From the NCBI GenBank assembly GCA_022539475.1, contig VCMS01000317.1, forward strand, positions 1 to 42,980: DNA of 42,980 bases. Reading direction: 5' to 3'. Made by a program: the position numbers and the translations under genes. Each line of letters starts with the position of its first letter. The first letter of the stretch is position 1. Below, piece after piece: positions 2,296 through 32,384 of this stretch. The DNA is from Gracilaria domingensis (Eukaryota > Rhodophyta > Florideophyceae > Gracilariales > Gracilariaceae). The notes below the pieces were generated by a model that saw nothing but the letters and a program-made list of their open reading frames with translations, was not told the origin of the DNA and did not search any database.

Positions 2296-3207
2296 ATGAA
2301 ACTGAGAAGTCTATACAGTTCCTGTCTATGCGGTACTTGTGGCAGTATGGTGACTGTATCAGGAAAAATGGCAGAGGAACAGAGAGACTTGGCGGAAATT
2401 TCACCAAATACCTTGTCTAAGTTCATATATGCCAATGGTTACGGTATATTAAGTTCCGTTGATGGAACGTTGAGAAGAGAAGGAGAGTCAATTCCAGAAG
2501 AAGTTGTGAAGTGTATGAAGTTCATTGACGAACGTGTTGGTTTCGGACTTGTCACAGGGGGTGATGTGGGCGACGTGGAGGGGAAAATGGAAGGACTCGG
2601 AGACTATAAGTTTGGTGTCTCGGCGAATCATGGAGCTTTCCTGCGTTTCTCTGACGAGAGGGAAATTAAGGGTGCATTCAATGATCACACCCTTGACCAC
2701 ACTGTTGACGGACTACTGTTCCTGGCAAGGGATTTGAATAGGAGGCATGGTATTGTGAATGATGATGACAAGGGGTTCGTGGAGACCAGAAGTGATAGTG
2801 GCCTTCCCAATTTCGTGTACAACAAACTGTGGCAGTGGAAAGAAGAAGTGGATTCTGCTATTGGGGACCTGTTGCAGAAGATGGATGCGTTTGTTATCTA
2901 TCCCGGCGATAAAAGTTGCGAAATTGTGGACAAGCGATACACAAAAGGAAGCGGAGGAGAAAATCTTGTGGATAATGAACCGAGATTTATTGATACGGAT
3001 GACGTCGTGACGTTCGGAAGTGCTTTGAGCGACGGGCCTTTGCATGAGGTAGGCGTGTACGGCGTTCACGTCAAAGAAGATTGTATCCCGCGTGGAGTAC
3101 ACAACCTGTTCGAAAGCGTGGAGGATGTACATTCGACAATTATGTTGGTGGCTCTGTTGTACGGCTACGAGGAAAAGCAGCACGATAAAAACCACCATGA
3201 TTCATAA
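2296..3207 (+). CDS. HAD-superfamily paralogue with degenerate active site (probable pseudoenzyme)
   Basis: A 303-codon ORF, ATG to TAA. It aligns along its whole length with the convergent gene at 3238-4248: NGYGILSSVDGTL against NGYAVISDVDGTL, SGLPNFVYN against SGLPNFTYN, and a shared KxSG block. HAD phosphatases use the first Asp of DxDGT as nucleophile; here it is Ser (SVDGT), which should abolish phosphotransfer. Motif II T-G-R-D is T-G-G-D, and motif IV GNASNDGPL is GSALSDGPL, which has lost the Asn-Asp pair. The frame is intact, so this is either a retained non-catalytic protein or an early pseudogene. A later in-frame ATG (the M of GKMAEEQ) is an alternative start. The substrate class, sugar phosphate of the Cof/trehalose-phosphatase type, is inferred from the fold only. 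Confidence 0.7.
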   Translation: MKLRSLYSSCLCGTCGSMVTVSGKMAEEQRDLAEISPNTLSKFIYANGYGILSSVDGTLRREGESIPEEVVKCMKFIDERVGFGLVTGGDVGDVEGKMEGLGDYKFGVSANHGAFLRFSDEREIKGAFNDHTLDHTVDGLLFLARDLNRRHGIVNDDDKGFVETRSDSGLPNFVYNKLWQWKEEVDSAIGDLLQKMDAFVIYPGDKSCEIVDKRYTKGSGGENLVDNEPRFIDTDDVVTFGSALSDGPLHEVGVYGVHVKEDCIPRGVHNLFESVEDVHSTIMLVALLYGYEEKQHDKNHHDS

Positions 3208-8331: not shown

Positions 8332-9716
8332 TTTCCAAAGCGAACAGACTATATTCCACTTTGCAGAACACAGACGTTCTCAAAGCTGGTACGGACTGTT
8401 CCGCTCAAGCGGATAACTGCTGCTGCTGTTGCTCAGGCGTTTGTTACCCACTGGGTCTTTGTCTATGGACCACCGGTACACGTGCTCTCCGACAACGGCT
8501 CCCAGTTCACGTCGAAATTCTTCCAAGACGTTTTTCGCATCCTCGACATTAGGAATCTGTTCACAACAACGTATCACCTCCAAACTAATGGTCAGGCAGA
8601 GAGATTTAATCGAACCATTCTTGGTGCATTGAGATCCTACGTTGTGGAACACCCCAAGACTTGGGATTTGTACACAAACGCCATTACATACGCGTACAAC
8701 ACCCAGATACATCGGGTAACGTTGTTGTCGCCTTTCGAGTTAGTCCTGTCAAGGAGACCACCTCCTCTTGTTATTGAGGCACAGCCAACCATGGACGAGT
8801 ACTCGACACCGAGGCTACACCGCGAAGCGTGGAAGAAATGGTTAACCACGATGGTGCCTATTGCTAAGCGCTCTATGGAGAAAGCTCAACTCGCCTACAA
8901 GCGCAATTTCGATAGCCGAATCCGTAAGCCGCTACCGCAGCTTCGGGTTGGTGATTATGTGTTCCTCAGGAAGGAGTACTACAATCCTGAGAAGGAGAAG
9001 CGCCATAAGCTCTCTCCAATCGCCAGTGGCCTCTATCGGGTTGTATCCATACAGGAGACTACCGTCGTGCTTGATATCGATAATCAGCACGAGCGGGTAT
9101 CGCGAGATCGAGTATATCGCGCACCGAGCCCTATACAGGAAGTTACCGCCGCGCCGGATACCGGAAACGGTGCATCGTCGCATCAAGTTACCGAACAGCC
9201 GGGTACTGCAGCAAACCGTCCATCAGTTTTGCCCAACCCGCAGCGCGGTCTCGCCGACTTGCCTGAAACAACAGAGTTGCTCAAGGATAACCCCGGACTC
9301 TCACGGGTTACACCTACACCCTCTACTGGGTTAGATGAGGTTCACCCCTCGTCTACGGTATTGGCGCGAAATGCGGAAGCCGTAGCGCACCCTAAGGAGG
9401 GGGAGGACAGTGTAAATCGCGCTCCGGTTGCTCCGGCATCCGCTGAACCTACCCGAGGTGCTGAGTCTCAGAGTGAGATGGAATCCCCCGCTGGGAACGA
9501 TCGCGCTGGCGCTACGTCGCGTGATTCCGAAACCTCGGCGAGGAACGAAGTCAGAAGAAGTGAAGAATTCCCTGCTGGGAGTGCTGCTGCTAAGGATGTT
9601 AGTGGCCCCATTGGGATGCAATCCAAGTCGCTGGGACGCGCTGTAACTCGCTCGCGCGAAGGTGCAGTATCCGCTGACCCCTTCGCGGGACGAAGCGGCA
9701 TGGAAAGTGACGCATA
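8332..9716 (+). pseudogene. Ty3/gypsy integrase, C-terminal two thirds
   Basis: The frame is open from 8332 after a TAG. It starts in the catalytic core (FSKLVRTVPLKRI); the region just before shows a small internal loss where a VDRFSK-type motif is expected. The core then has VLSDNGSQFTS (second catalytic Asp) and TNGQAERFNRT (catalytic Glu), the DDE arrangement of retroviral-type integrases. The first Asp and the N-terminal zinc finger are gone. A GPF/Y-like module follows (KLSPIASGLYRVVSI...DRVYRAP), then about 200 residues of Ser/Pro/Glu-rich disordered tail, to a TAG at 9714-9716. The chromodomain comes later in another frame. Confidence 0.85.
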
Positions 9717-10289
9717 GCCCACCTGGGAATGGCCCGCAGTGGGAGAGTTAAGAAGAAAAGAATCCTTGTGGATTGTGCTGGAAAGCCTTGGTCGGGAAGT
9801 GGAGAAGTCCCATGAAGGGCGCTGCTTAGCAGACGGAACGCTATGGTGCGTCGGACCCGGAATTACGGTAAATGGCACCGCGCGCAGTGCGCATGCGCAG
9901 CCCTATGGCGGGAGATTCGAGATTGAATACTGTAATCCCATGCCATTGCTGGAGAGTGGTGCCCGCCGCTTAGCGACCGCTTGTCGGAAACTGACACTGT
10001 AGATACCGTTCACGGGATGTGTGGCACACACGCGCGCCCCACCATCCAATGAAAATGGAGTGCACGGCCGGATATGCGCCGTAGCCCAGCGTTCCGCCGC
10101 CCTGCGCAGGGAGTGCTGTAGGCTACTTCTCCGTCGCAACGGCTCTTCTGCGACCAAAGTGAAAGTGGTTCCGCAAAACGGACGCTACCGTTCGTCGGTT
10201 GGCCGCCCGTTTGGGAAAGAAAGGAGCTCGCCGGACTCCGGAGATCGAGATTTTTCGGTTGAACTCACTTGTGAGGCAATTGGACGCCC
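9717..10289. other. Spacer between integrase and chromodomain in gypsy copy 1
   Basis: About 570 bases that have no counterpart in copy 2, where the integrase stop and the chromodomain frame overlap. It contains the 12-base palindrome TGCGCATGCGCA (9888-9899) and a CCAAT sequence near 10046, so it may be an insertion with promoter-like content. I cannot define its ends. Confidence 0.35.
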
Positions 10290-10670
10290 GTGTCGGGAGT
10301 TAGCGCACTCCGTCAGGACGGATTGAGAAGACCGAAGTCCACCTGTCCATGGCCCCGAAGATCGGTTCAACGCCTCCAAGGACCACTAACCGGCGTGGGT
10401 ACCACTGGAAATCACTGCCCAATGTCGGGAGAAGCACCAGGAGATGCCAAGGATGGCGTATACTCACAGGAATTCGTGGTAGATCGTATCGTGGAACACG
10501 AGAAAAGCCCCGAAGGGAAGCTACTGTATAGAGTCCGTTGGTACGGCTATCCCCCAGAGGAGGACACTTGGGAGCCAATTGAACACCTCCCTAGGTCCAA
10601 GGTGTTGTCGTATCATCGCGGGTCTCGGACACCATTGCCTCCAACGTTGGACAATGCGATGGTGGGGTAG
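10290..10670 (+). CDS. Chromodomain module of gypsy copy 1
   Basis: A frame from a GTG at 10290; its first ATG is at 10422. The C-terminal part is a chromodomain: FVVDRIVEHEK, then LLYRVRWYGYPPEEDTWEPIEHL, with the aromatic cage positions and the W-x-GY-x3-DTWEP signature. In chromoviruses this domain is fused to the integrase C-terminus and directs integration to methylated histones. Here it is in frame 3 while integrase is in frame 1, with 570 bases between. The conserved domain ends at 10670 with TAG. Confidence 0.8.
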   Translation: MSGVSALRQDGLRRPKSTCPWPRRSVQRLQGPLTGVGTTGNHCPMSGEAPGDAKDGVYSQEFVVDRIVEHEKSPEGKLLYRVRWYGYPPEEDTWEPIEHLPRSKVLSYHRGSRTPLPPTLDNAMVG

Positions 10671-11104
10671 CCCGTTAACCGGTGCAGTTTACAGTTCTCG
10701 TGCCCGCTCTGCGGTTTGAAGAAGAGAAGAGTGACGCTCAAGAAGAGAAGATGAAGTTAAGAAGTAGGAAGAGATCCTCTGTATAATAGGAGAGAAGGGT
10801 TAGTAGTAGTGACCACCGAATTATCGGGACAATGCCGCATTGCGGAAAAGTAGAAAATGCCTAAAAAGGAGAAAGAAGATATCTATGCCGAGAAGCCATG
10901 GAATGGAAGAGAAGAAGGATGCTAAGAATCCTATGGAAGGAAGAAGGAGAAGGTCCTGAAGAAGGAAGATGAAGAAGGAGATGAAGCAGAAGCTCGTTGC
11001 CGAGAAGAATCCCTAAAAAGGGCTAAGAAGAAAGCGCCACTAGCTGGCTTTACTCAGTACTACCTCAAGATACTATGGTGGGGAGAGTAAGACCTCTATA
11101 AGGT
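10671..11104. other. Purine-rich gap between convergent chromodomain and antisense ORF
   Basis: Made largely of GAAGA-type purine runs on +. Copy 2 has a matching run of GAAGA type on its own sense strand (about 24560-24640, written CTTCTT on +). It lies where pol transcripts and antisense-ORF transcripts would meet. No ORF is supported. Confidence 0.45.
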
Positions 11105-13162
11105 TTAGCCGCTGGTCGGAGGAGCCCCGCTTCCCGCGTTGGGATTCTGTGAGAAGTACTCGCTCGCGAGGGAAGCTAGCCTTGCGATGGTGTTCACGCC
11201 CGGAGTGATTGGCACGCCATGAGCCTGGAGATCGGCCCGAAGGGAAGCCACGCTTCCGGCCCAATTTGCTGGTTGTGCGGTGGGAGCTATCAAGGACCAT
11301 CCCTCAGGGGCAGGAGCGCCCTCCGTCGGGACCGCAGTTGCGTTCGGGTCCGTATTCGGAATGCCAGTGAGTTGGCCTGTTCCGGCAACGACGGCGATCT
11401 CATCGTTATCCACCATTGGATCAGGGACATCCGAGGGCACGGCATAGTCCTCAGGGAATACAAACCCAACTGGGTGACCTACCGGCATAGCGCGGGGAAG
11501 TGCGGCCATCGCGTTCGCTTGCTCTTGAGAGATGAGCTGGCGCTCCCACGGGTCGTAGTACACCCAGACCTCGGAACGGGTAGAAATTCGCCCCGGTGAT
11601 CGGTCGCGGAAACGCTGTCGCCTGTCAGGCTGCCAAGCTACCGGAACTCGGTCCCAATCGACCCTGTCGATTACATCCAACAACTCCCCAACCTCTTCCT
11701 GGTTAGCCTCGGAACCCAAGGGGGTAACGAGATCAATCCTTCGAAGGAGCCACCTCAAATTTGGAGGAAGATACCACAAGCGGAAGTGATCATAGACATC
11801 CCACAGGAGGTGAACCGCGACGCGGGCAGCCCACTCGGCGAGTACCAACGACCAATAGCCCGAGTCGGGATTTTCTATCAACCGCGAGCCGATATAGTAG
11901 ATGCTCGGCGGGAGTTCAGCAGAACACCCCGCAGGGACCTCTATCCGACTCCACCACGATGGAAGGCCCACGTATCGGGACGGTAAGGCATCGAAGCGCA
12001 AACGATCCACCTCCAAATTTGGATACGGAATCAGAAGTCCGCGACGGGAGCGCGCATTCCGCTCAAACCGGACCCGCCTCTCGAAATCATAGAGATCACG
12101 GTTGTGACGCCTACTCCGTGACAGGTATCGGAACTCTGCCCTCAGCAAGGGACGACTCCACAGGAGGATATCAGAATCCACTTCACCCAAGTGATACCGA
12201 TGCTCCGCTTCCGGAAACTCCGCCAACGCGTTGCCATATGAAACCTCCCCGTAGGTACGATAGTGCGACACGTCGAAGTCGAATTCTGCCGGAATCGGAT
12301 GATCATATCGCAACCTTCCAACCCTGGAATAAGCCAAACGAGCCATCTCCCCACGCGCTTGGTCAAGGGACTCCCCGCGTTCACATCGGAGCAAGTGAGG
12401 TTCTACCGCAATGCGGGTTCGCCACTCGCGGGAGCGTACTGCATCTCGGGGGATCCTACCTGGGAGCATTCCGTTCACGGCGTAAGAATCGATGAGAGCC
12501 TCATCGGCAACCGCTGTCGGGTGGAACAACGGCGCGCGGGAGAAGATAAGGCCCTCGCGGCGTATATCCCGATTCACGAGGGACTCACGACTAATCCACC
12601 CACGGGGGTTCACCGTCAACGGGACAGCCTGCTCGGCATTCCAAGCAATGGCGTTAGGATCGAAAGCCTGCTGAGTAGGAGCAACTGGAGGAGCCGAAGG
12701 CATCGGAAGAGGAGCACCCGGATGGGGATACGCCTCGTAGAAGCTGAAAGGAGCCACCGCTTGCGGGACCGGAGCTTGCGCTTGAGAAGGGAAGAATCCG
12801 AGATGGTTGTACCCCGCGTAGGGTTGGTTGAGCGTGCCACCGTACGGATTCCCTTGAGGGAGAGGAGCTGACTGAAACCCACCAAAGTATTGGGAGGGGC
12901 CTTGAGGAGGATGTCCTTGTTGTGACGCACTGCCCGAGGGCACCTCAGACGCCGCTTGCGGAGGTGACGATGAGTTCCCCGGGAGCGGGTTGGTATGGAA
13001 CGGGTTCGGATTCATTCCTGCTAAAGGAGGAGAAGAAGCAGTTGAGACTGGCAGCGAACGCCGAGGTATCGTAGGAGAAGGAGGAGTTATATCCGAAGTC
13101 GGAGGCGAAAGCCGCTTGCGTGGAAGAACCAAGTGGTCGGTAGAACCCTGAGGGGACGTCAT
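11105..13162 (-). CDS. Antisense ORF of gypsy copy 1, unknown family, intact 685 codons
   Basis: ATG at 13162-13160, TAA at 11107-11105. I recognise no domain. Residues 1-170 are Pro/Ser/Gln-rich and disordered. A globular part from about 170 to 560 is rich in Arg, Trp and Tyr, with motifs shared with the copy-2 protein: DSYAVNGMLPG, REWRTRIAV, ARGEMARLAY, YRTYGEVSYG, RPLLRAEFRYL, EVPAGCSAELPP, GYWSLVLAEWAARVA, YDHFRLWYLP. The acidic/Ala-rich C-terminus ends with a short helix and a Gly/Pro tail, also shared. No zinc knuckle, signal peptide or clear membrane segment is visible. The ATG is 57 bases from the polypurine tract, so transcription must start in or across the 3' LTR on the opposite strand. 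TATAAAT lies directly before the ATG, too near to serve that ATG. It is not RT, integrase or RNase H; an unusual Gag or an accessory protein is possible. Confidence 0.7.
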   Translation of the reverse strand: MTSPQGSTDHLVLPRKRLSPPTSDITPPSPTIPRRSLPVSTASSPPLAGMNPNPFHTNPLPGNSSSPPQAASEVPSGSASQQGHPPQGPSQYFGGFQSAPLPQGNPYGGTLNQPYAGYNHLGFFPSQAQAPVPQAVAPFSFYEAYPHPGAPLPMPSAPPVAPTQQAFDPNAIAWNAEQAVPLTVNPRGWISRESLVNRDIRREGLIFSRAPLFHPTAVADEALIDSYAVNGMLPGRIPRDAVRSREWRTRIAVEPHLLRCERGESLDQARGEMARLAYSRVGRLRYDHPIPAEFDFDVSHYRTYGEVSYGNALAEFPEAEHRYHLGEVDSDILLWSRPLLRAEFRYLSRSRRHNRDLYDFERRVRFERNARSRRGLLIPYPNLEVDRLRFDALPSRYVGLPSWWSRIEVPAGCSAELPPSIYYIGSRLIENPDSGYWSLVLAEWAARVAVHLLWDVYDHFRLWYLPPNLRWLLRRIDLVTPLGSEANQEEVGELLDVIDRVDWDRVPVAWQPDRRQRFRDRSPGRISTRSEVWVYYDPWERQLISQEQANAMAALPRAMPVGHPVGFVFPEDYAVPSDVPDPMVDNDEIAVVAGTGQLTGIPNTDPNATAVPTEGAPAPEGWSLIAPTAQPANWAGSVASLRADLQAHGVPITPGVNTIARLASLASEYFSQNPNAGSGAPPTSG

Positions 13163-13218
13163 ATTTATACTCCCGATGTCGGTACTTCGACGTCGCGCTC
13201 GCGCTCGTGCTCGAACCT

Positions 13219-13231
13219 AAGGAGGGGGAGA
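13219..13231 (+). other. Polypurine tract of gypsy copy 1
   Basis: AAGGAGGGGGAGA directly before the LTR start TGTGGAGCAA. The same purine run precedes the LTR start in copy 2 on the minus strand (22489-22477). This fixes pol as the sense strand and puts the antisense ORF inside the element. Confidence 0.7.
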
Positions 13232-14224
13232 TGTGGAGCAACGGCTTTCCGCTATCGGATGCATCACGGCTCTCATAATGAAATGGTACCGATGGCCGGT
13301 GACGTGGCTAAGTTATGAAAACTCCCTTTAATTTTGGGTATTGTTGGGATGGTTTGGTTGGACCCTTAATAGGTAGACCCTGCATGGGAAGTGCCTAGTG
13401 GGTGTGATAGTAGGCCACGTGGTGGAGCCGGCTAGTTAGATATTTGTGCCACGCTCGTTGGGGAATACCCCACACCCTGACAGTGGGTCGTCCACGTGTA
13501 TGACCCTCGGGAGGTGTGCATTGTAGATACCGTAGTAGTAATAGTATATATGCTCGGGTGATCTCACCCTGGAGCCGACGAGTAAATGGACAACTGAGTC
13601 GCATCCTGTTCAGGACCGGGCTATAGTAGACAGCTGCCTACGTAGGTTTACCACTCCCCTCGGAGAGTAATCACGATTGGTTTCGGCACTACTACCCCTC
13701 AGGGTCACTTAGGAAGCTTGCATCTTGCCATCTCTGGAACCTTTGTTATATTTACCGTTGTATCGGTCTCTTGTTGTTGTCATTGTATTTCGTTGTTCAC
13801 TTTCGTGACTGTTATTGTCACCCATTCACCTGGTTCAGGTATTGCTTCCGCCCCAGTATTGGGTATATCTTTGGCACGCCTTTGTGCGTCGCTCCGCTAT
13901 CGGACCTGTTTCCGCCGGTTGGCACGGTCCGTAGCTTCGCTCCGGTGGGTTGCACCGTGAGCTTTCCCCCCCGTTGACACGGTCCCCTTTTTCTCCATCT
14001 CTCCAGGTTCGGATCACACTTCACCTCTGGATCTACATGATCGTTCTTTGCATCTCACCTCTGTAGGTATATCCAGTCACCGGCTCCGGTCTTACACCCG
14101 GATTGTCTCGCGACTCGAGCACGGACAGAGGGTTCTGCCGCTGTTTCTATCCCATCCAGGGAGTAGGACTCGGACATCCCAGTGGAGATTCCCCATGGCG
14201 CCTAGCGCAGGGTTTTGCTCTACA
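13232..14224 (+). repeat. 3' LTR of gypsy copy 1
   Basis: 993 bases from TGTGGAGCAA to TTGCTCTACA, which are imperfect terminal inverted repeats (9 of 10). A TATA-like sequence (TATATA, about 13545-13550) lies in the first third. A block CCGGTCTTACACCCGG (14086-14101) matches the copy-2 LTR in the same relative orientation. The region after 13710 is rich in short TTGTTGTT runs, as expected for R/U5. No ORF is supported. Confidence 0.65.
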
Positions 14225-14510
14225 CTGTGAAGCTGCTGGTAGAACCAACTCCCATGTATGTTGACAACCAGGGCAGCATCGACCTTGCTCGAAATGGAGT
14301 GGTGAACAGGAGAACCAAACACATTGAGATTCGGTTCCACTTCACTCGAGAAGCTCTGCAGGCCAAGTCGATTGTACTGTTCTACTGCCCGACGGATTCC
14401 ATGGTTGCCGACATGCTGAATAAGCCACTTGCCCGAGTAAAGCACGAGAGGTTCCGTGAAGCCGGTGGAGTGATCCACATAGAAGTTTGAAGTCAGTGAC
14501 AAAGGGGGGG
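14225..14510 (+). pseudogene. Copia family A RNase H tail (truncated upstream copy)
   Basis: From 14225 the sequence is nearly identical to 20152-20415 of the full copia A: KLLVEPT, MYVDNQGSIDLARNG, TKHIEIRFHFTRE, ADMLNK, GGVIHIEV, then TGA at 14488-14490 and a G-run polypurine tract up to 14510. This is the C-terminal quarter of RNase H. It joins directly onto the LTR at 14511, so a second copia A copy once lay upstream and has been cut at 14224 by the gypsy LTR terminus. Confidence 0.85.
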
Positions 14511-15288
14511 TGTTGGATGTTGACCCTGTGCTGTCACTGAAAACCAAAAGTGCTGGGGAGCATGGGCTGTTTTGGAGGGTGCCGTTGGAAAAGCGCATAT
14601 GCGCCTCTGCGCAAACTCAACGTGAAACGGGCTTCTGATTGGCTACAGCAAATGGTCATATGCATTGTTGTTCGTACAAGTGTTGTGGCGCTAATGGGTT
14701 GTTTCCAGGGTACACGTTTGTAGCTAGTACAGTGGGCATACTGTACATGATGCACAGGGTACACACGTATGTACGTGGACATGTAAGACAGCTTGATGTA
14801 ACTTGGGCACTATGGTGAAGAGCTGATGCGGTGTCAAGAGGATTACAGTGTGGTGTTCTTGGTGACGTAGGACTTGGAGTGAGTTTGTGGTGAAGTGTTG
14901 TTGGTGAGCTTGTACGTAACTGTTATGGTGTGGTGTAGGGATTACAGTGTGTTGGCACTATGTGAATCTGTGCATGGTCATGGTTGTGTGTAGGCACGTA
15001 AGTTGTTGTGCACTGTTGTGCACTGTTGTGCTTTGTTGTTGTAAGCTGCCATGATAGTGTGGGAGTGTTACCATGTTATGTTAGAAGATGATTTGTAGTA
15101 TTGAATGTCTCTAGCTAGTAGTTTAGGTATTGCTTGGAGTTGGAGGTTTGCGATGGTTGCGCAAAGTAGTTCTATATAAGCGGTGACTCGAGCACCTCCA
15201 AGTAAATTCCGAGCCAGAGCTGGCGAACTTCCTTTCATTCCCCCCATCCTTCCTCTCAACCTTCCCTTTCCAGCTATAACCTCCATCA
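14511..15288 (+). repeat. Copia A LTR (5' LTR; also 3' LTR of the truncated upstream copy)
   Basis: Begins TGTTGGATGTTGACC and ends CCTCCATCA. Contains GCGCATATGCGC (14593-14604), an inverted CCAAT box (TGATTGGCTA, about 14636-14645) and a TATA box (TATATAA, 15173-15179), leaving about 85 bases for R-U5 after the expected start site. GTTGTGCACT repeats lie near 15003-15035. Confidence 0.9.
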
Positions 15289-15302
15289 GGTTATGGGCCC
15301 AG
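15289..15302 (+). other. Copia A primer-binding site, half-tRNA type
   Basis: GGTTATGGGCCCAG follows the LTR directly. It is the complement of the anticodon stem-loop of eukaryotic initiator-Met tRNA (CTGGGCCCATAACC), not of a tRNA 3' end. Drosophila copia is known to prime from a 5' half of this tRNA cut in the anticodon loop. Confidence 0.7.
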
Positions 15303-16379
15303 CCCCGCTGACCTCTGCCGTTATCGTTCGTCTATCGCCGCTCTCCCTCACCGCCGTTCATCCGTTTCGCTGTTTTCCTTCTCGTTCTCTTCTTCGTTGC
15401 ATCGGGTGTGTTGACCGTGTTGTTGATTGGTGTTGGTCTTCTCTTTTTGGTCTTGCGTTCCTCCCTGAGGGCGTTGTGGTGGTAGTGGTTCGACGTTGAT
15501 TCTGTATTGTGATTGTGTTTGGGCGCTCGTTGTTGCCCGTGTTGTCGATGGCTATCCCTCTCGTTTGGTCTCCCTCTGTCGTTATTGTTGGGATACCCGC
15601 GTTGTGTTGCGGGTTCTGATCCGAGAGGTTGAGGACCTTGTGTTGTTGAAGTCTGTGCACTTCGTGTGTGCTCAGCTGTTGTTGAAGTCTGTGCACTGTG
15701 TGTGCTCAGCGTTTGGGGTTTGTTACCTAAGGTCCAGCGACGAGCGGTTGATCCGAGCAATCGGGGACGTTAGTCTGGCGGCTTGAACCAAAGCGGACGT
15801 GCTGTCTAGCGGGCTCCTACCGGTCCTTCGGGGCGGATAACGGTGTCGGTCGGAAGACCTGGTAGTACCGCGAGTGCTGAAGTGAACGGGGTGCCGTGGC
15901 GCACTGTTGGACTGGGGTGACTCACCTTTGTTGTTGTTGACCTGAATTTGTGTCGGGTTCTTGATCTGTGGTGAAGGCAAACCGAAACGAGCTTTTGATC
16001 CGTGCAACCTCGGTTGAGCGCGGAGGCGACGTACCGAAGGCTGACCTCCTTTTCAGGATCAGGCCGCGTGTGGGCATTATTGTCTGCTCGTTAGGAGCGT
16101 ACCTTGGTTTGTCATAGTAGCTGCAGTTTCGAGGTCGCGCAAGTTCTTGCAAGAGGCCAGATTGGGTTAAGTGGTGAAGACATATCTTTGGTCATTAACC
16201 ATCTTTTGGACGGGTACTGGGAATTTAGTTCCTGCCAGTGGTCCCGACTATTGAAGTATTCTTTCTACTATTTGTTGTTGTTGTTGTTGTTTGTTGTCGT
16301 TGTTTGCTGTTGTTGTCTGCCGTTGCTGCCTATTTCCGTCTGCCGTGTTTGACTTTATCAGCAGTTCCTCTCTTACATT
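15303..16379 (+). other. Copia A leader
   Basis: About 1.08 kb between primer-binding site and gag ATG with no supported gene. It holds a 35-base tandem duplication (15641-15676 and 15677-15710, TGTTGTTGAAGTCTGTGCAC...CTCAGC) and two motifs also in the copia B leader: CATATCTTTGG (16181-16191) and CCTGCCAGTGG (16231-16241). A TTGTTG run is at about 16273-16292. Confidence 0.6.
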
Positions 16380-18128
16380 ATGGACTCGTTTAGTGGGCTC
16401 AAGATCGAGAAGTTGGGTGAGGATAACTTCCATACTTGGAAGCAGAAGAATCAGTATGTACTTGCACTGAAAGACCTCAAGAACCATCTCACCACTTCTG
16501 CACCCACGGATGAAGAGGAACTGGTAAAGTGGCAAATCCGGGACGAAAGGGCCAGAGCTATCATTGGACTCACGCTTGCCGACGAGCACTTGGATCACAT
16601 TCGAGACATCGAGACTGCTGCTGACGCATGGAAGGCCATTTGCAATGTGTTTCAACGTAAGACTCTTCTTAACCGAATCAACGCCAGACGTGCCTTCTAC
16701 TCTGTCAAGATGCGCGAGGACGAGAAGATGTTGCAATTCATCAATCGTGTTCGGCACTTGGCCTCCGACCTCAAGAGTATGGATGTCAACGTTGAAGAAG
16801 AGGACATTGCTATGGCTGCTCTATGTGGACTTCCGGAACGTTTCGAACACCTCATTGTTGCAATTGACACCACGATCGGAGATCGCCAACTCAGTATGGA
16901 GTTTGTGAAGAGCCGTCCATTGCAAGAAGAGCAACGTATGAGTGATCGTGCCAAGAAGGAGTCCGGTGTTGATGCTGCACTCTTGGGACGCCAGTTTCGT
17001 AGGAAGTCATTGAAGTCGGCTGTGTGTTACTATTGTGGCATAAAGGGTCATATCCAGAAGAACTGTTTCAAAAAGCAACGTGATGGGGCCAACAAGGATC
17101 AGATCGATGCTGCTCACCCAAGTGTACATACCACGCTCAACGATGAGCAAGGTACGGGCGGCAGCGATTCTGACTTTGTATGCCTCATTGCGAATGGTGC
17201 TGACAAGGCCACTAACAGTAACTGGATTGTTGACTCTGGAGCTACTGCACACATGACTTATCATGACTCAATGTTCCAAACGTACGAGAAAAAGGTGTCG
17301 TCGGGTGTGAGTATCGGCAATGATTCCAAGTTGCAGTCTGTTGGTCACGGAAGTGTGGAGCTCGATCTGACAGTTGAAGGGTCCAAACGTAAGTGCAAGC
17401 TAAAGCAGGTGCTGCACGTGCCCAACTTGCGGTACCACCTGTTGTCAGTGTCGCAGATATGTGATCTGGGCTGCACGGTAGTGTTTGACAAAGAAAAGAT
17501 ATGTGTGTACAAGGGGTCAAAAGTGGTTGCCGTTGGGCGCCGCGTCAAAGACCTGTACTACCTTTGCACTGCTGCAGATCAGTTCACGGATACGGACCGT
17601 GCCCTTGTGTCAGACTTGTCTCTTTGGCATGCTCGAATGGCTCATGTGAATGTTGAAGGCATCAAGCAGATGGCTCGAGACGGTGTTGTGTCAGGTCTGA
17701 ATGTGGATGTGGCTCACAAGGTGGATGTGTGTGGCTCATGTGTAGTGGGCAAAGCAACCCGAGCTCCGACTCCCAAGCAAAGTGGGGAACGAGCTGAACA
17801 CGTACTGGACCTGTTACACTCTGATATATCGGGTCCAGTGAACGTGAAGTCCTTGGGAGGCTCGCACTACTTTGTCACATTCATCGATGACCACAGCCGT
17901 TACTGCTTTCTGTACATGCTCAAGACGAAGGATGAGGTGTTCCGGATGTTCATCAAGTGGCTCAGGTTTGTGGAGAACCAGATGGGCAGGAAAGTGTTAA
18001 CCATCACCGCTCGCAAGAGTGTGTTGCGTGCATTACGCACTGACAATGGTGGTGAGTACTTGTCCAATCGGTTCTCCGAAAAGCTTGAGCAGTACGGTAT
18101 TGAGCATCAGCCGAACTGTGCCTTATAA
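16380..18128 (+). pseudogene. Copia A Gag-protease-integrase (first frame)
   Basis: ATG at 16380. Residues 1-190 are Gag with the copia-type LGEDNFHTWKQKNQ start and a UBN2-like middle. A CCHC zinc knuckle is at 216-229 (CYYCGIKGHIQKNC). The aspartic protease motif is VDSGATAHM with Asp285. The integrase zinc finger has H417, H422, C451 and C454, followed by GKATRAP. The core has HSDISG (Asp482) and RTDNGGEY (Asp555). The frame then runs into TAA at 18126-18128 because of an extra base near 18115. The catalytic Glu follows in the next frame. Confidence 0.88.
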
Positions 18129-18606
18129 TCCACAGCAGAACGGGCTTGCCGAGAGGTTCAACCGCACACTCATGGACTTGGTCAGGTCAATGTTGCATCA
18201 CAAAAATGTGCCAAAAAGCTTTTGGGCTGAGGCTCTGAATGTTTCTGTGTATGTGCGCAACAGAGTGACCTGCAAAGCGCTTCCGAGTGACGTGACTCCG
18301 TTTGAGCTGTGGCATGGACAGAAGCCTGATCTGAGCAATCTGCGTGTGTTTGGTAGCCGTTGCTGGTACAAGGTGGTTGATCACAAGTTGAAGAAGCTGG
18401 AAGAGCGTGCAGTGGAGGCCATCTTCATTGGGTACACTTCAGGCTCCCACGGGTACAAGTTGTGGGACAGCCAGAAGAAGAAGGTGATTGTGTCACGAGA
18501 TGTGAGGTTTGACGAGTGCTCTGGAACTGAAAGTGACGAGCACTCTGAACACGAGGACTACGCGGATATCGACTTGGTCGACAAGTCGGGAGCTGCTGAA
18601 GCCTAA
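18019..18606 (+). pseudogene. Copia A integrase C-terminal part (second frame)
   Basis: Continues integrase after the frameshift, from about 18115: VPYNPQQNGLAERFNRT (catalytic Glu), then the copia integrase tail (KSFWAEALNVSVYVRNR, LRVFGSRCW, FIGYTSGSHGYKLWD) and an acidic linker. A TAA at 18604-18606 interrupts the frame; the same frame continues into RT. The part before 18115 in this frame is a shadow. Confidence 0.88.
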
Positions 18607-19602
18607 ACCTCTGACACATCCATTGATGATTCTGAAGATGACCCTTCTGCACCAGCTTCTCACGAGAATACCACGAATGCCAGTACGGATGAACACACCA
18701 CACCAGACACACATGATGAGCCAGGAGTGCCAGAGACGCAGCCCCTTCGTAGATCCACACGTCAGAGAAAGACGACATCCTCATGGTGGCGTAGTGCCAG
18801 TGCTTGCCTTACAGCCATTGATGATACTCCTTCGTCGTACGGTGACGCAGTGTCACGTCCTGATTCCGAAGCTTGGAAGAAGGCGATGAAGAGTGAGTAC
18901 GAGTCATTGATGGAGCATGACACATGGGATCTAGTGCCAAGGCCAGCAGACAGCAACGTGATTTCGTCCAAGTGGGTGTATGTGCAGAAGTATGAGGCTT
19001 CGTCATCTGGTGAACCGACAGTGCGTTACAAGGCTCGTGTGGTTGCAAGAGGCTTCCTCCAGATCGAGGGTGTGGACCTCTCAGAGACATATGCACCTGT
19101 GGTGAAGTTCACATCCATCAGGATGATGCTGTCAGTGACTGCCGTACGAGACTTCCACTTGCACCAGATGGATGTGAAGACTGCCTTTCTGAACGGTGAC
19201 CTTGACGAGACAGTGTACATGGAGCAGCCAATGGGATTCACACAGCAGGGAAAGGAGGACTTGGTGTGCCGACTGAAGAAAGCGATCTATGGGCTTAGAC
19301 AAGCACCAAGACAGTGGCACGCCAAGATATACGCCTTCCTTGTTGGTGAAATGCACCTCAAGCCGAATGACGCAGACGAGTGTGTCTACACCGGGATCAT
19401 ACTAGGTTTCTTGGTTATCATTGCTCTGTATGTTGACGACTTGCTGATTGCGAGTCCGAGCATGAAAACCGTGGAACGTGTGAAGGCAGAGCTGTCAAGT
19501 CGTTTCCGCATGAAGGACCTCAAAGAAGCTCGCATGGTTCTTGGATTTGAAATCCATCGAGACAGAACCAAGCGAGAGCTGTACTTGACTCAGTCAGCGT
19601 AA
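18607..19602 (+). pseudogene. Copia A reverse transcriptase
   Basis: Same frame as the integrase tail, reopened after the TAA at 18604. The linker leads into RVT_2-type reverse transcriptase: AWKKAMKSEYESL, KWVYVQKY, YKARVVARGF, TYAPVVKFTSIR, DVKTAFLNGDL, KKAIYGLRQAPRQWH, and the active site ALYVDDLL (YVDD at 19429-19440). A second in-frame TAA at 19600-19602 falls at the usual Q-S-A-Y position shortly before RNase H, so the Tyr or a neighbouring codon has probably mutated. Confidence 0.9.
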
Positions 19603-20415
19603 ACGAACAAGATCCTGGAGCGATTTGGCATGCAGCTGTCGAAACCCGTTGACACTCCTATGGAGTGCGGTGTGGACTTGTCTGTTGAGGAGGAAGTGCT
19701 CACGCATGTACCGTATCGTCAGGCGATTGGCTGCCTGATGTATCTCTCTGTGGGAACTCGTCCAGACATCTCATATGCTGTGGCTAAGCTGGCCAAGTAT
19801 GTTGAGAAGCCGGGAAACACTCACTGGAAGGCGGTCAAGCGTATTCTTCGCTACCTCAATGGCACTACCACGTTCGGGTTGACGTATGGCTCCAACACCG
19901 ATTTGCAACTGCACGGCTATGTGGACTCTGACTGGGCTGGCGATGTTGCCAACCGCAAGTCCACTAGTGGATACTTGTTCATGATGTGCGGTGGTGCTGT
20001 GTTGTGGTCGTCTCGTCAACAGGAGGTAGTGGCTCTGTCGAGTGCGGAGGCTGAGTACGTGAGCTTGTGCTCTGGCACTAAGGAGGCGATCTGGCTTAGG
20101 CGACTTTGGAACGGCATTGGCAGTGTGATTGGCATGGAAGCAGACGGGTCTGTGAAGCTGCTGGTTGAACCAACTTCCATGTATGTTGACAACCAGGGCA
20201 GCATTGACCTTGCTCGAAACGGAGTGGTGAACAGGAGAACCAAACACATTGAGATTCGGTTCCACTTCACTCGAGAAGCTCTGCAGGCCAAGTCGATTGT
20301 ACTGTTCTACTGCCGGACGGATTCCATGGCTGCGGACATGCTGAATAAGACACTTGCGCGAGTGAAGCACGAGAGGTTCCGCGAAGCCGGTGGTGTGATA
20401 CAGATAGAAGTTTGA
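19603..20415 (+). pseudogene. Copia A connection and RNase H domain
   Basis: The same frame continues: KILERFGMQLSKPVDTP, YRQAIGCLMYLSVGTRPDISYAV, then RNase H with YVDSDWAGD (first Asp), SSAEAEYVSL (Glu), MYVDNQGSIDLARN (Asp) and TKHIEIRFHFTRE. It ends with TGA at 20413-20415, about 20 bases before the 3' LTR. These motifs are the normal catalytic set of copia RNase H; this part alone is undamaged. Confidence 0.9.
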
Positions 20416-20435
20416 AGTCAGTGACAGAGGGAGGG

Positions 20436-21211
20436 TGTCGGATGTTGACCCTGTGCTGTCACTGAAAACCAAAAGTGCTGGGGAGCATGGGCTGTTTTGG
20501 AGGGTGCCGTTGGAAAAGCGCATATGCGCCTCTGCGCAAACTGAACGTAAAACGGGCTTCTGATTGGCTACTGCAAATGGTCATATGCATTGTGGTTCGT
20601 ACAAGTGTTGTAGCGCTAATGGGTTGTTTCCGGTGTACACGTGTGTAGCTAGTACAGTGGGCATACTGTACATGATGCACAGGGTACACACGTATGTACG
20701 TGGACATGTAGGACAGCTTGGTGTAACTTGCGCACTATGGTGAAGAGTTGATGCGGTGTCAAGAGGTTTACACTGTGGTATTGGTGACGTAGGACTTGGA
20801 GTGAGTTTGTGGTGACGTGTTAGTTGGTGAGCTTGTACGTAACTGTTATGGTGGCGTGTACGGATTACAGTGTGTTGGCACTTTGTGAATCTGTGCATGG
20901 TCATGGTTATGTGTAGGCACGTAAGTTGTTGTGCACTGTTGTGCACTGTTGTGCTTTGTTGTTGTAAGCTGCCATGATAGTGTGGGAGTGTTACCATGTT
21001 ATGTTAGAAGATGATTGGTAGTATTGAGTGTCTCTAGCTAGTGGTTTAGGTATTGCTTGGAGTTGGAGTTGTGCGATGGTTACGCAAAGTAGTTCTATAT
21101 AAGCGGTGACTCGAGCACCTCCAAGTAAATTCCGAGCCAGAGCTGGCGAACTTCCTTTCATTCCCCCCATCCTTTCTCTCAACCTTCCCTTCCCAGATAT
21201 AAACTCCATCA
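20436..21211 (+). repeat. Copia A 3' LTR
   Basis: Starts TGTCGGATGTTGACC after the purine run GACAGAGGGAGGG and ends AACTCCATCA. It carries the same GCGCATATGCGC palindrome (20518-20529), inverted CCAAT box and TATATAA as the 5' LTR, with scattered differences. Confidence 0.9.
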
Positions 21212-21622: not shown

Positions 21623-22476
21623 TGTGGTGCAATCCCACGAGTGGGCAAACAAGAGTCGCGTCGCGGAAAGCGCACCGACAGAGTGTTCGAAACCTGCTCT
21701 CTATAGGGGTAGATGCAGGAGTAGAACTCTCTGATAGGGCCAGCGCGATGCCCGGTGTAAGTCCGGGTGGCCTCGATCTGACCTTGCAGTCAGAGGTGAA
21801 GGGGAAGAATCGGCGTAAGTATCCGGTTGTTCCGGCGAGCCACAGCAAGTGGAGATATCCAGCCTAACGGTAAGGAGTGACAGGGGACCAACGAACAAGC
21901 CGCACTGCGGAGCACTGACTCGTGATAAACGGGAATAAGTCCCGAGACTAGTGGGCAAAAACCTGTATAAGAGGGCAGAGAAACGAGAGCCGTATGACGG
22001 AAATAATAACAAAGAAACAACAAAAGATGCCGTAACGACGGTCTAGAACTTCTCAGTGGTAGAGGTCGGATGACTAGCCCGGAATTGTGGCGGCTTGCCC
22101 GGTTAGGGACGAAGACCGTTCACAAGCGGCAAGAAAGTCGAAGCCAGAAGCCTCCTTGAGGTTTACTTCCCGTACAGTGGCGGCAAATGCCGCCACTTAT
22201 ATGCGGCACTTGAAAATATCAATTGAAATATCAAAGTACCCGGCGATGCCGGCCAATACACTACAGATGTGCACCCGTGGCAGGCTTGCCCCGGCGCACC
22301 CGCTATCGGGACAACTTGGCACACGTGTGCAGAAATACTACCCTTTCTAGGCCTACCCCAAAATAGGGCCACTACCACAGAAGCCTTTCATAACCTGAGG
22401 TGTCGAAGCCGGCAACGGATCAACAAACTATGAAAAACACCTCGGGGCATCCCCACAAAGGGCGTTTTGCTCTACA
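21623..22476 (-). repeat. 3' LTR of gypsy copy 2
   Basis: About 854 bases, reading on - from TGTAGAGCAAAAC (22476) to the reverse complement of TGTGGTGCAA (21623). These ends are imperfect inverted repeats and resemble the copy-1 LTR ends. The block CCCGGTGTAAGTCCGG (21751-21766) matches the copy-1 LTR in the same element orientation. The sequence next to the polypurine tract (TTGCTCYACATCTCCCCC on the outer strand) is also conserved. No ORF is supported. Confidence 0.6.
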
Positions 22477-22529: not shown

Positions 22530-24331
22530 ATGGAGTTATATAGAGAAGTCTCCCAAGACGGGTCTGCCGAGAACTATTCGGAGCCACCAACACCTCCGGT
22601 GTCAGTAGCAAACCTCGCCATAACGAGCCTTCCCGCGATGTCCAACGCACCGAGCGGCCCTTCGTCCTTGACGGCAAGTATGCAAGTGTCCAACCCGCCG
22701 TTCCGGTCTGTACCTCTTCCGCAGTCGGCGGCTGCCTCTCAACCGGGTTCTTCCGGAATCACGCTCCAGCTCAAGCTGGCTCTGCGCCCGTATGGGACTG
22801 GTTCAATGCCGAAGTGCCCGCATCTCTGGGTGATTGGCCTACAGCAGGCGCGTTACATATCCGGGACCCTCACCGGCAAGACTTCCTGTTTGCTCAGGCT
22901 CCGTGGTTTGACGCCGATGCTGTCTCGGATACTGAGCTCGTTGACTCATTCGCCGTTGATGGTCTACTCCCTGGTGGGCTTCCGGCAGATGTGACCCGTT
23001 CGTGGGATTGGAGAACCCGCGTCGCGGTCAGCCCGAGTTTCCTGTTCGTAGATCGGAATGAATTGAGACAATTTGCTCGCAACGAGATGGCCCGCATCGG
23101 GTATGCCCGACACTTCCGGACTCCTAACGAGTATCCGGTTGCGGCACAGTACCAGTATGATGTGGCAAGATACCGAACGTTCGGCGAGGTCGGCTATGGC
23201 GACCATCTAGCCAACGCATTGGACGAGATTGACCGATATTCGGACACTGTTCAGCCTCATCAGGAGTTGACACTGCGGGCACGGCCCATTCTTCGCGCCG
23301 AGTTCCGGTATCTCCGCCCTCCAGGACGGTCTCAGTTCCACGAAGGCCTCCGTTTCGAGAGGAAGTGGGGTTCCCGGTTCGGGATATTGGCGGCGTACCA
23401 ATGTACGGAAGTTAAACAAATCACTGGACACTCCCGTCGTGGGCGCTACTTGCCGCTGCCATCGTTCTATCCTGCGGTGGAAGTCCCGCGAGGGTGCCAT
23501 GTCGAGCTCCCGCCCTGTGTTACGTACATAGGGTCATACTTCTTTCACGATCCGCCTCGCGGCTTGTGGAGCCTCCTAGCCACTGAATGGACCCTCCGTG
23601 TAGCGGCGTTCCTCTTCATGGAGGCATACGATGCGTTCCGTCTCTGGCATATTCCGGACCTCATCCGGCAGTTTATCCGAAACCTGGACATTTTCGAAGT
23701 ACTCAGCTCAGTTCGCAATGCGCGAGAAGCCACCGCATTGGTGAACGTCATTGACCAGATCGTCTTGGATGAAGTGCCTTCGAGTCAGATATCCGGCGGA
23801 GTCCGACGGCAAAACGATCGCTCTCCGGGGCATAACGTTAACGCCGGGGACTTCCTCTACTTCGACCCATGGGTTCGGGAGGTGATTGGACCCGTCGAAG
23901 CGGCTGAGCGTCCCCAAGAGGACCGATACATCCCCGAGGGGCACCCACGAGGGTTCGTCTACGTCGATGACGACGGCAAGGACCCTGCCGAGGGAGGAAG
24001 CCTCATAGATGAGGGAAGCCCAGAGGGCGTGGAGAACGAACCAGAGCTCGAATCGATGAGAGACGACGACGAGGCAGTTGTCGTCGAGCCACCGGCGCGA
24101 GCGGCTCCTGTTTCAACTTCCCCCTGGGCTCAGGTCGAGGCTTCCGCCGGAGACGGCAACACTACGCTCACACCGTGAGCGGCGGTCATCCGCGACTTCC
24201 TTCGAGGCGTGGGCGTGGCCGTTCCTGATACGGTAACCGACGAGTCGGATCTGCAAGCCATCGCGGCGCAGCACTTCTCCGGTGCCCCTGGCGGTGGTAT
24301 CCTCACACATGCTGGGCCTTCGGGTGCTTAG
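22530..24331 (+). pseudogene. Antisense ORF of gypsy copy 2, homologue of 11105-13162
   Basis: ATG at 22530, 41 bases inside the polypurine tract. The Pro/Ser-rich N-terminal part is in one frame until about 22740-22770. The globular part continues in the next frame (WDWFNAEVPASLGDW onward) to a TGA at 24176-24178. The same frame then goes on, with a C-terminal helix like copy 1's, to TAG at 24329-24331. Shared blocks with copy 1 include DSFAVDGLLPG, DWRTRVAV, ARNEMARIGYAR, YRTFGEVGYG, RPILRAEFRYL, EVPRGCHVELPP, GLWSLLATEWTLRVA and FRLWHIP. Length, order and gaps agree, although many residues differ. One frameshift and one stop make this copy non-functional. It lies opposite to pol, as in copy 1. 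Function unknown. Confidence 0.7.
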
Positions 24332-24848
24332 CTTCCTCTTTACGGGGCTCCCGGTCGGGCGTTGTAGCCATTAGTAGACCCCGATGAGGCGCAGAGCTCC
24401 ATAGTTAGAGGTAAACTTCAGCCTGATTAGGCGTGGCTCATGAATTTTTCTTCTTGACCTCCCCCTTCTCAGCCTGCAATACATCAGTAGAGGCTGTTGC
24501 GAATGGCCCACGAGAGAGGGGTAACTTTCTGCAGAAGCGGCTGTAGCGATAAAACTTCTTATTCTTCCTTCCAGTGTCCTGGCTTCTTCTCCTTCTTCTT
24601 AGGCTTCTTTCTTCTTCATCTTCTTCTCCACTGTAAGTGGCTTCCGCGTTTCACGGCTTGTCTGTTCAGACAGAGACTGTCCGCAAAGAGCGGCATCTTG
24701 CTGCTTTCCAGTAGCGTCTGCCTAGGGCGGCTTGTTAGTATCAACATCGTTGCATCCGCGTGAAGCGGCACGTTTTGCATGATGCAATTCCATCCGCGTG
24801 AAGCGGCATATTCCGTTCGAGACGGCATAACTCACTAGTTGTGGGTGG
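24332..24848. other. Gap between convergent antisense ORF and chromodomain in gypsy copy 2
   Basis: No gene. It contains a long CTTCTT-type run on + (about 24560-24640), purine-rich on the element's sense strand, as in copy 1, and a direct repeat CATCCGCGTGAAGCGGCA (about 24757 and 24791). Confidence 0.45.
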
Positions 24849-25160
24849 TCAACCCACTTGGACTCTGTCCAGCGTAGCCAATATCGGTGTCCGTGTGCGG
24901 CGGTTGCACTGTAGGACCTTAGAGCGAGAAAGATGCTCGATAGGCTCATGTGTATCCTTCGAAGAAGGACAGGCGTACCAACGGACTCGATACAATAGCT
25001 CTCCATCAGAGGCGTAGCCGTGACTAATCAGGCGGTCCATAAAGTACTCCCTGTCGAGGACACGGCGCTCAGTGTGCGGTTCCGTTATTGTGCCCTCTTC
25101 TGGGGTGTCCTTGGTTGCTTTCCCGTCGTGGGCGTCGCTAAAGTCCTGACGGCGGTGCAT
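24849..25160 (-). pseudogene. Chromodomain module of gypsy copy 2, degenerate
   Basis: ATG at 25160-25158. The C-terminal half is a chromodomain: YFMDRLISHGY, LLYRVRWYACPSSKDTHEPIEHL, SKVLQ. Compared with copy 1 the Gly-Tyr of WYGYP is Ala-Cys, and DTWEP has become DTHEP, so the methyl-lysine cage is probably lost. The frame overlaps the end of the integrase frame (stop at 25138), so here too the chromodomain is in a different frame from integrase. Confidence 0.75.
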
Positions 25161-25186
25161 TCTGCACGCCAGGTGGTCTTGGTGAA

Positions 25187-25191
25187 GATTG
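25187..25191. repeat. Target-site duplication, left copy
   Basis: GATTG directly before the copia B 5' LTR; the same five bases follow the 3' LTR at 31691-31695. Confidence 0.8.
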
Positions 25192-25919
25192 TGTTGATGT
25201 TTGGATAGAGTCGAGTGCCTGGCAGTCCTTCAATGTGTCTCCAATTACCTGGAACACAAAGTTGCAGGGGAGCATGGGCACTTTTGGGCAACCTCGCGCG
25301 AAAAGCGCATATGCGCCTCTCCGAAAACCCAACGTGATACTGCAATATGATTGGCTACTGCAAATGCGTGTATGCAACATAGTATGGACAAGTGTGCCTG
25401 GCTGTATGGGGCAGGAGTGGCGGATGCTACAAGTGGTGCGCTATGATTGGCTGAGTGTGCTAGTGCTGGCCAGTTATGCAGTAGCTGAGAATGTGCGAGA
25501 ACAGGCTGTTCTAGGCGGGTTTTGCTTTATGTGCGATTCTAAGCTAGTACGAAGGGTTTTGGAGCGAATGTGCGATTCTGAGCTGCGCGAGGGGGTTTGT
25601 TGCGCCAGATGGAAATTGTTGATTTTTTAGAGCGATTTATGGATCATGGAGTTGGCATTTGATTTGGCGCGGTTTGATTTAGTTGTTTTGAATTCGTATT
25701 ATGATTTGCGCGCGCTTTCGTTGTCAAGGGGTACACTTTGACAGCGTGTGCTGTTATGTCGCATGCAGCGACGGCGGCGGTGCGCGTCTAGTACTAGTAG
25801 GTTGCGATCGTCCCCGATCACTAAACTCGGTCGAAGGCGGCCTACCCCCTTTGTTTGTTTTACCCATCTTGTTCACATTTTTCTCACTTCCCTTTGTCTA
25901 ACCTGCGCATGCTGCGTAA
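25192..25919 (+). repeat. Copia B 5' LTR
   Basis: Starts TGTTGATGTTTGG and ends at or next to CTGCGTAA, so it does not have the usual terminal CA. It contains GCGCATATGCGC (25305-25316) and an inverted CCAAT box (TGATTGGCTACTGCAAATG) in a block shared with copia A. No clear TATA box. Confidence 0.88.
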
Positions 25920-25933
25920 GGTTATGGGCCCAG
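25920..25933 (+). other. Copia B primer-binding site, half-tRNA type
   Basis: GGTTATGGGCCCAG directly after the LTR, identical to the copia A site, and complementary to the initiator-Met anticodon arm. Confidence 0.7.
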
Positions 25934-26629
25934 AGCGTCGACTCTTCGCAGACATCACGCTCTTCTACTGATTTCTCCTTTGGATTCTACGAAGTTTTGT
26001 TTTCTTGCGACAGGTACGCGTTGCGAGCGAGCGAGCGAGCGAGCGAGCAGAAGGACCTCGCTGATTTCCCGCAAGCGACTAGCAGGGGCTAACTGTTGAA
26101 CGCATATCTTTGGCTACTAACCTCCCTGGGACGTCTTGTGGGGATTGTAAAGCCCCTCGCTCTGAAGTACACAGAGCAGGGTAGGTCGAGAAGAACTCAT
26201 GCCTCACCTGGAGAGAGTAACCAGGGACCAGAGGTTCGGACCTCTAGGGTAACCGGATATTAGATCCTGCCAGTGGACCCGCTGCTTCTTCTTCTTCTTC
26301 TTCTTTCCGGGTTGAGTTCTGTCTCACCCGTGAGTATACTCCAGGCGTCGAGTACCCGAACTCCGCCAGTGATCGCGTACGGGACGCGTCCCGACCAGCG
26401 TTGTAGACCTGGTTACACGGTCTCCGCTGGCGCCCTCGCTGTTGAGTGTTCAGAATACTCCACTCCAGCCTTTACCCTCTTGTGTAACTGAAGCGTTGAT
26501 TCCCTCTTTCCGCTTCTTTGTTTGTGTTTTTGAGATTTGTTCTTCACTTCCGAGCTGGTTCTCTACTTTTCTTGGCTTGGTTGCTACCTGTTTTTCTGAT
26601 TCTGGCTGTCCTTCACCAGGTCTTTCGTC
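25934..26629 (+). other. Copia B leader
   Basis: About 700 bases without a supported gene. Microsatellites (GCGA)n at about 26028-26047 and (CTT)n at about 26285-26303. CATATCTTTGG (26103-26113) and CCTGCCAGTGG (26267-26277) are shared with the copia A leader at a different spacing. Confidence 0.6.
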
Positions 26630-31690: not shown

Positions 31691-32384
31691 GATTGTGTGT
31701 TTCTGACGTTCAGGCTTCCAGATTTCTGGCTTTCCACCCCGTTTTGTCGGGCTGTGACCTTACTTTGGTCTTCTCGAATAGCGAGCTTCCGGCGTTCCGG
31801 CGGGATCTCCCGTCGTGAGGGTGAACGGTCCGCCTTGCGTTGCGCCAGCGAGTGGTGCTGGTGTGCGCGCCGTGGCGCCGTTTCGCCACTCACTGCTGGT
31901 GATGGAGCCTGCGCCGTTGCACGGCTGTGCGCTGCCGAATCGAATTCGGAATTTCCGTTTTCGGCGGCCGCAAGCCTTACAGCAGGCACGTGCCCGGCTC
32001 GTGTGCTGTTGTCCTCCACTGGAGGCGGGTCGCCGGCGAAGCCAGACACTTGGCGCAATGTGCGCGCGTGTGCAGCGTTGTGCTGCTTCCCACTTACTGT
32101 GGCGTATCGGCTCGCCATATCGGCGGTTTTCTCCGTTTTTTCAACGGCTTCATCACTCGTTGCTTGACTGAGATCTCCCGAAGTCGGGTCTGCCCTTACA
32201 ACACGGTCTCTTTTGACTAACTTTTCTTCCGGAATCGCGGCTCTCTTCAGCACAGGTGCGCTACCGCTGTCGGGCTCTGGCTGCGGCGAGCGGGTATATT
32301 CCGCATTTGACGCGGCTGTTGCTATGGTTGCGACATTCTTTTCCGGCGTGCCGGTCTCACGCTGCACAGCTGGTGTAGGCTTCC
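31691..32384 (-). pseudogene. Integrase C-terminal tail of gypsy copy 2
   Basis: The open frame on - begins after a TAG near 32384, reads about 225 residues of Ser/Ala/Arg/Glu-rich text, and passes into the copia B LTR, where it would stop at 31669. It resembles the disordered tail after the GPF/Y module in copy 1. Across the insertion the same frame continues at 25191 and stops at 25138. The integrase core is not present, so the element is truncated here. The GATTG target duplication is at 31691-31695. Confidence 0.6.

Follow-up and report, generated by a model that had tools for sequence, protein, structure and literature searches.

Chromodomain retrotransposons of the red alga Gracilaria domingensis carry an additional gene that lies antisense to pol, between the chromodomain frame and the 3' long terminal repeat (LTR), and is kept under purifying selection at the protein level. 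We describe it from a 42,980-nucleotide stretch (assembly GCA_022539475.1, contig VCMS01000317.1), called the window below, where it forms a frame of 685 codons at 11105..13162 on the minus strand. This frame is a genuine gene, and the Ty3/Gypsy chromodomain element to which it belongs is here called copy 1. In the genome (77.9 Mb, 680 contigs) six subfamilies, designated A to F, have the gene in convergent orientation to a chromodomain frame and to what remains of pol; copy 1 belongs to subfamily A, and a second copy in the window, copy 2, to subfamily B.

Layout of copy 1 and of complete elements

What copy 1 comprises, judged from its sequence, is the 3' half of a Ty3/Gypsy element. The 3' part of pol that remains (integrase, 8366..9717, plus strand) is truncated at its 5' end, position 8366 being where similarity to the three copies compared begins; its frame (8332-9717, plus strand) matches rve at 2.8e-06, under the Pfam cut-off, with the domain truncated. 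A chromodomain frame follows (10275..10670, plus strand; PF00385, 2.2e-13). The antisense frame is open over 703 codons, of which 685 are counted from the first ATG, about 70 bp from the 3' LTR, and we annotate it from the open reading frame (ORF), its matches in the genome and the selection acting on it. An earlier note, written from the letters of this DNA, had described an intact 685-codon ORF opposing integrase and chromodomain, and the open frame together with the plus-strand rve and PF00385 matches bears this out. Copy 1 ends with a polypurine tract, AAGGAGGGGGAGA (13219..13231, plus strand), read from the sequence, and a 3' LTR (13232..14224, plus strand) whose TG...CA ends could also be read and which is 96% identical to the LTR of a complete copy.

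That complete copy, a subfamily-A element in C187 (L033, L034), has two 989-bp LTRs that are 100% identical over their full length, with TG...CA ends, a 5-bp target duplication (ACATC) and the tract AAGGAGGGGGAGA preceding the 3' LTR. Its sense frames are, in order, a 743-aa frame in the gag position, a 362-aa frame, reverse transcriptase (RT; 316 aa, RVT_1 2.2e-40), RNase H-integrase (836 aa) and the chromodomain; the antisense frame, of 703 codons, stands after the chromodomain frame and before the polypurine tract and 3' LTR. A CCHC-like motif was recognized by eye in the gag-position frame, for which a Pfam search gave no gag match. The element adjoins a 134-codon frame (L033 2543-2947) that matches the DDE_Tnp_4 transposase (PF13359, 5.6e-11), and its insertion site may therefore be within or beside a DNA transposon. 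The subfamily-B copy in C16 (L037, L038), of which the LTR pair is the only one of these hallmarks observed, has LTRs 99.5% identical over 861 columns; its pol is a single frame of 1737 aa in which RT, RNase H, integrase and chromodomain (8.1e-07) are all found, and its antisense frame spans 610 codons. Runs of N, which may be assembly gaps, occupy L037 1-858, beyond the 3' LTR of this copy, and the end of L043.

The other subfamilies are represented by less complete copies. In L039 (C) and L042 (F), pol is followed by a chromodomain frame (Pfam 4.6e-13 and 2.4e-11) and then by the antisense gene; L041 and L043 (D) have pol and the antisense gene, with a chromodomain-like frame seen by eye at 1817-2170 of L043; and in L040 (E) the antisense gene is accompanied by a fragment of pol and by a frame, at 2822-3121, that looks chromodomain-like by eye. 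The chromodomain frames are therefore supported by Pfam in A, B, C and F and by eye in D and E. The order RT, RNase H, integrase with a chromodomain downstream is found in A and, within one frame, in B, and from this domain order and the chromodomain we assign the class as Ty3/Gypsy chromodomain element.

Recurrence and linkage of the gene

The antisense frame recurs beyond chance, with at least 68 genome matches to the window protein, at least 80 to the copy-2 protein and at least 78 to the protein P0001; these counts are lower bounds, and several matches may be fragments of one copy. Scoring covered 65 of 1304 candidates for the window protein, 80 of 1396 for the copy-2 protein and 75 of 1334 for P0001. 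Among the matches listed, nine to the window protein are full length without a stop, and 59 of 80 to the copy-2 protein have no stop in the matched stretch.

The earlier note had described the layout from two copies, and further elements that share it were sought and found. Using the gene matches of the window protein and P0001, without those of the copy-2 protein, and counting a gene match up to 8 kb downstream of an integrase match, 58 of 103 integrase matches have a convergent antisense-gene match (median gap 1424 bp), among the matches listed; a same-strand gene match accompanies one of the 103. Viewed from the gene, 57 of 68 subfamily-A matches have a convergent integrase match, again among those listed. 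The 44 integrase matches with no partner among the gene matches listed include C17 (L043), which carries the gene intact, C137:22091, where it is present by DNA similarity, and C329 (L044), which retains a remnant of 147 codons. In this last derivative (C329:31000-35999) the integrase is subfamily-A-like and the remnant is D-type by eye, hinting at recombination and at supply of the product in trans. Integrase of the L044 type has four matches at 84%, three of them of equal score, in three contigs.

Selection on the encoded protein

The ratio of nonsynonymous to synonymous divergence (dN/dS, by Nei-Gojobori; 22 used of 30 subfamily-A copies fetched) is low between diverged copies, with medians of 0.17 at a synonymous divergence (dS) of 0.3-0.6 (51 pairs) and 0.16 at dS >0.6 (54 pairs). 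The suggestion of the earlier note that coding capacity has outlasted much DNA change therefore holds, and the value near 1 that would have spoken against it was not found in these 105 pairs. Less diverged pairs have medians of 0.28 (dS 0.15-0.3, 49 pairs) and 0.31 (dS 0.02-0.05, 48 pairs), and the subfamily-B pair, copy 2 against L037, gives 0.20. Along the protein, the 105 pairs with dS >0.3 give 0.21 for codons 49-186, 0.12 (with dS 0.60) for codons 187-560, which make up the folded core, 0.14 for codons 561-636 and 0.19 for codons 637-685; codons 1-48 stand apart, with 0.67 and a low dS of 0.21. Variable columns with at least two minority copies number 109, 63 and 267 at the first, second and third codon positions over the 685 codons, and each of the five other frames is interrupted by stops, with medians of 11-29 per copy.

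Start codon and predicted promoter

Translation probably starts at window position 13015, 49 codons inside 13162, which would give a protein of 636 aa, because codons 1-48 evolve unlike protein. A TATAAA box (13164..13169, minus strand) stands at -7 to -2 relative to the first ATG, so that this ATG would sit where transcription has hardly begun; of the 26 subfamily-A copies examined, 23 have the box. The next in-frame ATG of the window copy is codon 50 (MNPNPFHTNPL), where all 26 subfamily-A copies have M, and this site resembles the in-frame ATG sites of D, E, F and P0001 (MNPNQF, MNPFPT, MNHFPT and MNPNHN).

The box lies at a matching offset in three subfamilies, 62 nt from the end of the LTR in A, 60 nt in B (TATATA, in both copies) and 59-61 nt in C (TATAAA). 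Given this matching place and the later translation start, the gene probably has a promoter of its own, which would lie in the internal region close to the LTR and drive transcription in the direction of pol. In 18 pairs of diverged A copies, differences per site amount to 0.03-0.10 in the 120 nt that surround the box and rise to 0.18-0.23 in the 60 nt around codons 34-53; the values upstream and further downstream span a wide range, from 0.04 to 0.40.

The protein and its relatives

The antisense protein, of about 560-640 aa, consists of a proline-rich head and an acidic stretch, both of low model confidence, a helical core and a C-terminal helical hairpin. AlphaFold predicts the core with confidence as mostly helical, and the comparisons made found no PDB match for it. 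The C-terminal part is acidic in all five subfamilies computed (isoelectric point 4.1), and no transmembrane-like stretch was found in the same five (maximum KD19 1.52). No significant match was obtained in Pfam, PHROGs, NCBIfam or PDB sequences; the profile searches gave no match to Gag, RT, integrase or Env, in keeping with what the earlier note had supposed. Relatives occur in Gracilariopsis chorda, where P0002 matches 88% of the query core at 43%, in Agarophyton chilense, where the partial P0010 matches 42% at 55%, and in further sequence records. Together with a DET1 gene in the window, the two named relatives fit a gracilarialean red alga as the host.

The subfamily-A protein is a lysine desert, with 1 lysine against 67 arginines in 703 codons, where about 11 lysines are expected from base composition. 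Lysine counts are 1-10 in the five subfamilies counted, and the gag and pol frames hold many. Escape from ubiquitin-dependent turnover is one conceivable reason, a constraint imposed by the sense strand another.

Discussion

The layout itself is already known from flowering plants and fungi, and it is the lineage and the protein family that differ here. The available excerpts of two reports place antisense ORFs in the same position in Grande, RIRE2, Retand, PvRetro13 and Boty, and attribute this layout to recently active flowering-plant elements (PMC7264820, PMC11963269). According to these excerpts, gene23 of Grande has an upstream promoter of its own and encodes a nuclear protein, and the antisense ORFs of the Retand lineage (Retand, Grande gene23, RIRE2) mostly have a TRP28 domain, PF04195; the lineage is described as non-chromovirus and, among the plants surveyed, as confined to eudicots and Liliopsida (PMC11963269, PMC7264820). 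The red-algal elements resemble Retand as excerpted there in having an antisense ORF between pol and the 3' LTR, but they bear a chromodomain and encode a different protein family. An hmmscan search against Pfam found no PF04195 match in the antisense proteins of subfamilies A-F at E<=1 (seven proteins at this threshold, one more at E<=0.01). Membership in Retand was therefore rejected, since the layout is shared but the PF04195 match is lacking and a chromodomain is present.

Outside plants, the excerpts consulted name an antisense gene, brtn, in Boty/BcGypsy1 of Botrytis cinerea (PMC7264820, PMC8365987). Boty is likewise a Gypsy element with an additional antisense gene; it is fungal, however, and the likeness is one of layout, brtn being known here by the description in these excerpts. 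Deltaretroviruses, compared by description in the parts available, have the antisense genes HBZ and APH-2, and the antisense promoter of human T-lymphotropic virus (HTLV) lies inside the 3' LTR (PMC11963269, PMC7264820). Both systems have a minus-strand protein near the 3' LTR and would share an antisense promoter, whereas the red-algal TATA box is internal, about 60 nt from the LTR. In the literature searched we found neither a red-algal chromodomain lineage with an antisense gene nor this protein family.

We put it at an even chance that this is an own-promoter antisense accessory gene of a chromodomain element, the protein of which is a trans-acting regulator, most likely nuclear, that counters silencing. 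In this scenario, transcription would begin at a promoter of the gene itself, close to the 3' LTR on the internal side, and proceed towards pol, yielding a short mRNA apart from the gag-pol RNA. The protein would act in trans on the expression or integration of its own element, and its most likely role would be that of a nuclear regulator by which transcription is kept up in the face of silencing by the host. We favour a nuclear trans-acting role, itself at about even odds, because of the predicted own promoter and the acidic and proline-rich parts of low confidence, and because membrane segments are lacking and Grande offers a parallel. More tentatively, the gene may represent an undescribed family with a new fold, long carried by red-algal chromodomain elements, expressed antisense from its own promoter as a lysine-poor trans-acting product that sustains expression (by anti-silencing or as an activator), and of a third independent origin after Retand and Boty.

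Several observations weigh against the proposed gene and role. Median dN/dS is 0.58 at dS <0.02 (16 pairs) and 0.56 at dS 0.05-0.15 (13 pairs); high values in near-identical copies are the pattern to be expected if single copies decay after insertion. The ratio is low as well in one frame on the pol strand, at 0.28 (for divergent pairs, 0.25); we take this as an echo of shared variable sites because stops in this frame number 29 per copy at the median. An exact box is limited to A, B and C; AT-rich variants near that place were recognized by eye in E and in one of two D copies, and in F the box could not be placed. No feature of fold or sequence specifically suggests DNA binding or anti-silencing. 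Finally, copies of the L044 type have multiplied or were duplicated, and the one examined keeps only 147 codons, which suggests that a copy may not require the gene in cis.

A role elsewhere in the life cycle, as a component of the particle or pre-integration complex or as a second structural protein with its own mRNA, seems to us rather unlikely. Selection on the protein, the mostly helical core and the open frame in the complete copy with identical LTRs would all suit such a role, and the absence of a fold match, although a point against it, is compatible with it; yet a gag-position frame with a CCHC-like motif is already present, and a protein required in bulk would hardly be expected from a separate antisense transcript. 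Improbable, too, is a protein that limits the element, as in copy-number control. Antisense transcription would converge with pol and derivatives without most of the gene exist, but strong, long-term purifying selection across subfamilies is easier to explain for a product that helps the element. That the antisense RNA is what matters, through double-stranded RNA or interference with pol, with the open frame a by-product, accords with a promoter-like element at a matching place. It is contradicted by the low dN/dS over codons 49-685 (0.12-0.21), by the excess of third-position changes and by the similarity of proteins between subfamilies in which synonymous sites are near saturation, and we hold it to be very improbable.

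We attach just as little weight to an Env-like or cell-to-cell movement protein: the position between pol and the 3' LTR is that of env, but Env is encoded in sense and has transmembrane segments, and here the orientation is antisense, the computed proteins lack transmembrane-like stretches and no significant Pfam match was found. Still less credible is the independent capture of a host gene by each copy, a possibility raised in the earlier note, or an artefact of two head-to-head neighbouring elements. The lack of known relatives is all that speaks for either, and both are contradicted by the reversed gene occupying the same place downstream of the chromodomain frame in six diverged subfamilies, by the high share of subfamily-A gene matches with convergent integrase and by the complete element with identical LTRs.

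The red-algal elements add a further lineage to those with antisense genes. Their protein family is a different one, a single genome holds many copies, one intact element is very young, selection is clear and a promoter is predicted. If unrelated proteins have repeatedly settled in this reversed position, a shared need is probable, namely a regulator uncoupled from gag-pol transcription. Gene catalogues of such algae may list many of these genes as hypothetical proteins, of which P0002 of Gracilariopsis chorda is one.

Copy 2 and other features of the window

Copy 2 is inverted, damaged and of a different subfamily from copy 1. Its 3' LTR (21623..22476, minus strand) is 82.5% identical to that of the C16 element of subfamily B, and a TATATA box stands at 22537..22542 (plus strand). 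The earlier note had placed a homologue of the copy-1 protein at 22530-24331. The relationship is genuine (37% identity over 480 aa, E 1e-90), but the interval is not a single frame: the core is open at 22544..24178 (plus strand; ORF and protein match), and the N-terminal part, with the first ATG at 22530, lies in another frame. The chromodomain-holding frame (24849..25229, minus strand) matches PF00385 at 3.6e-05, just below the curated cut-off, with subfamily-B similarity up to 25133. A nested Copia element (about 25191-31679) splits pol, which resumes at 31697..32381 (minus strand; 83% to L037 4526-5212).

The terminal repeats of this Copia element are 95.8% identical, and another lies at 14225-21211; both have gag and integrase domains and are situated in or beside the Gypsy copies. 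Each Gypsy copy has a spacer that is purine-rich (GAAGAAG) on the sense strand, in copy 1 at 10690..11100 (plus strand), between the convergent chromodomain frame and antisense gene, and in copy 2 at 24500-24640; a shared terminator or a second polypurine tract is possible. Beyond copy 2, the window contains a host DET1 gene at 33185-34705 (PF09737, 2.9e-48).
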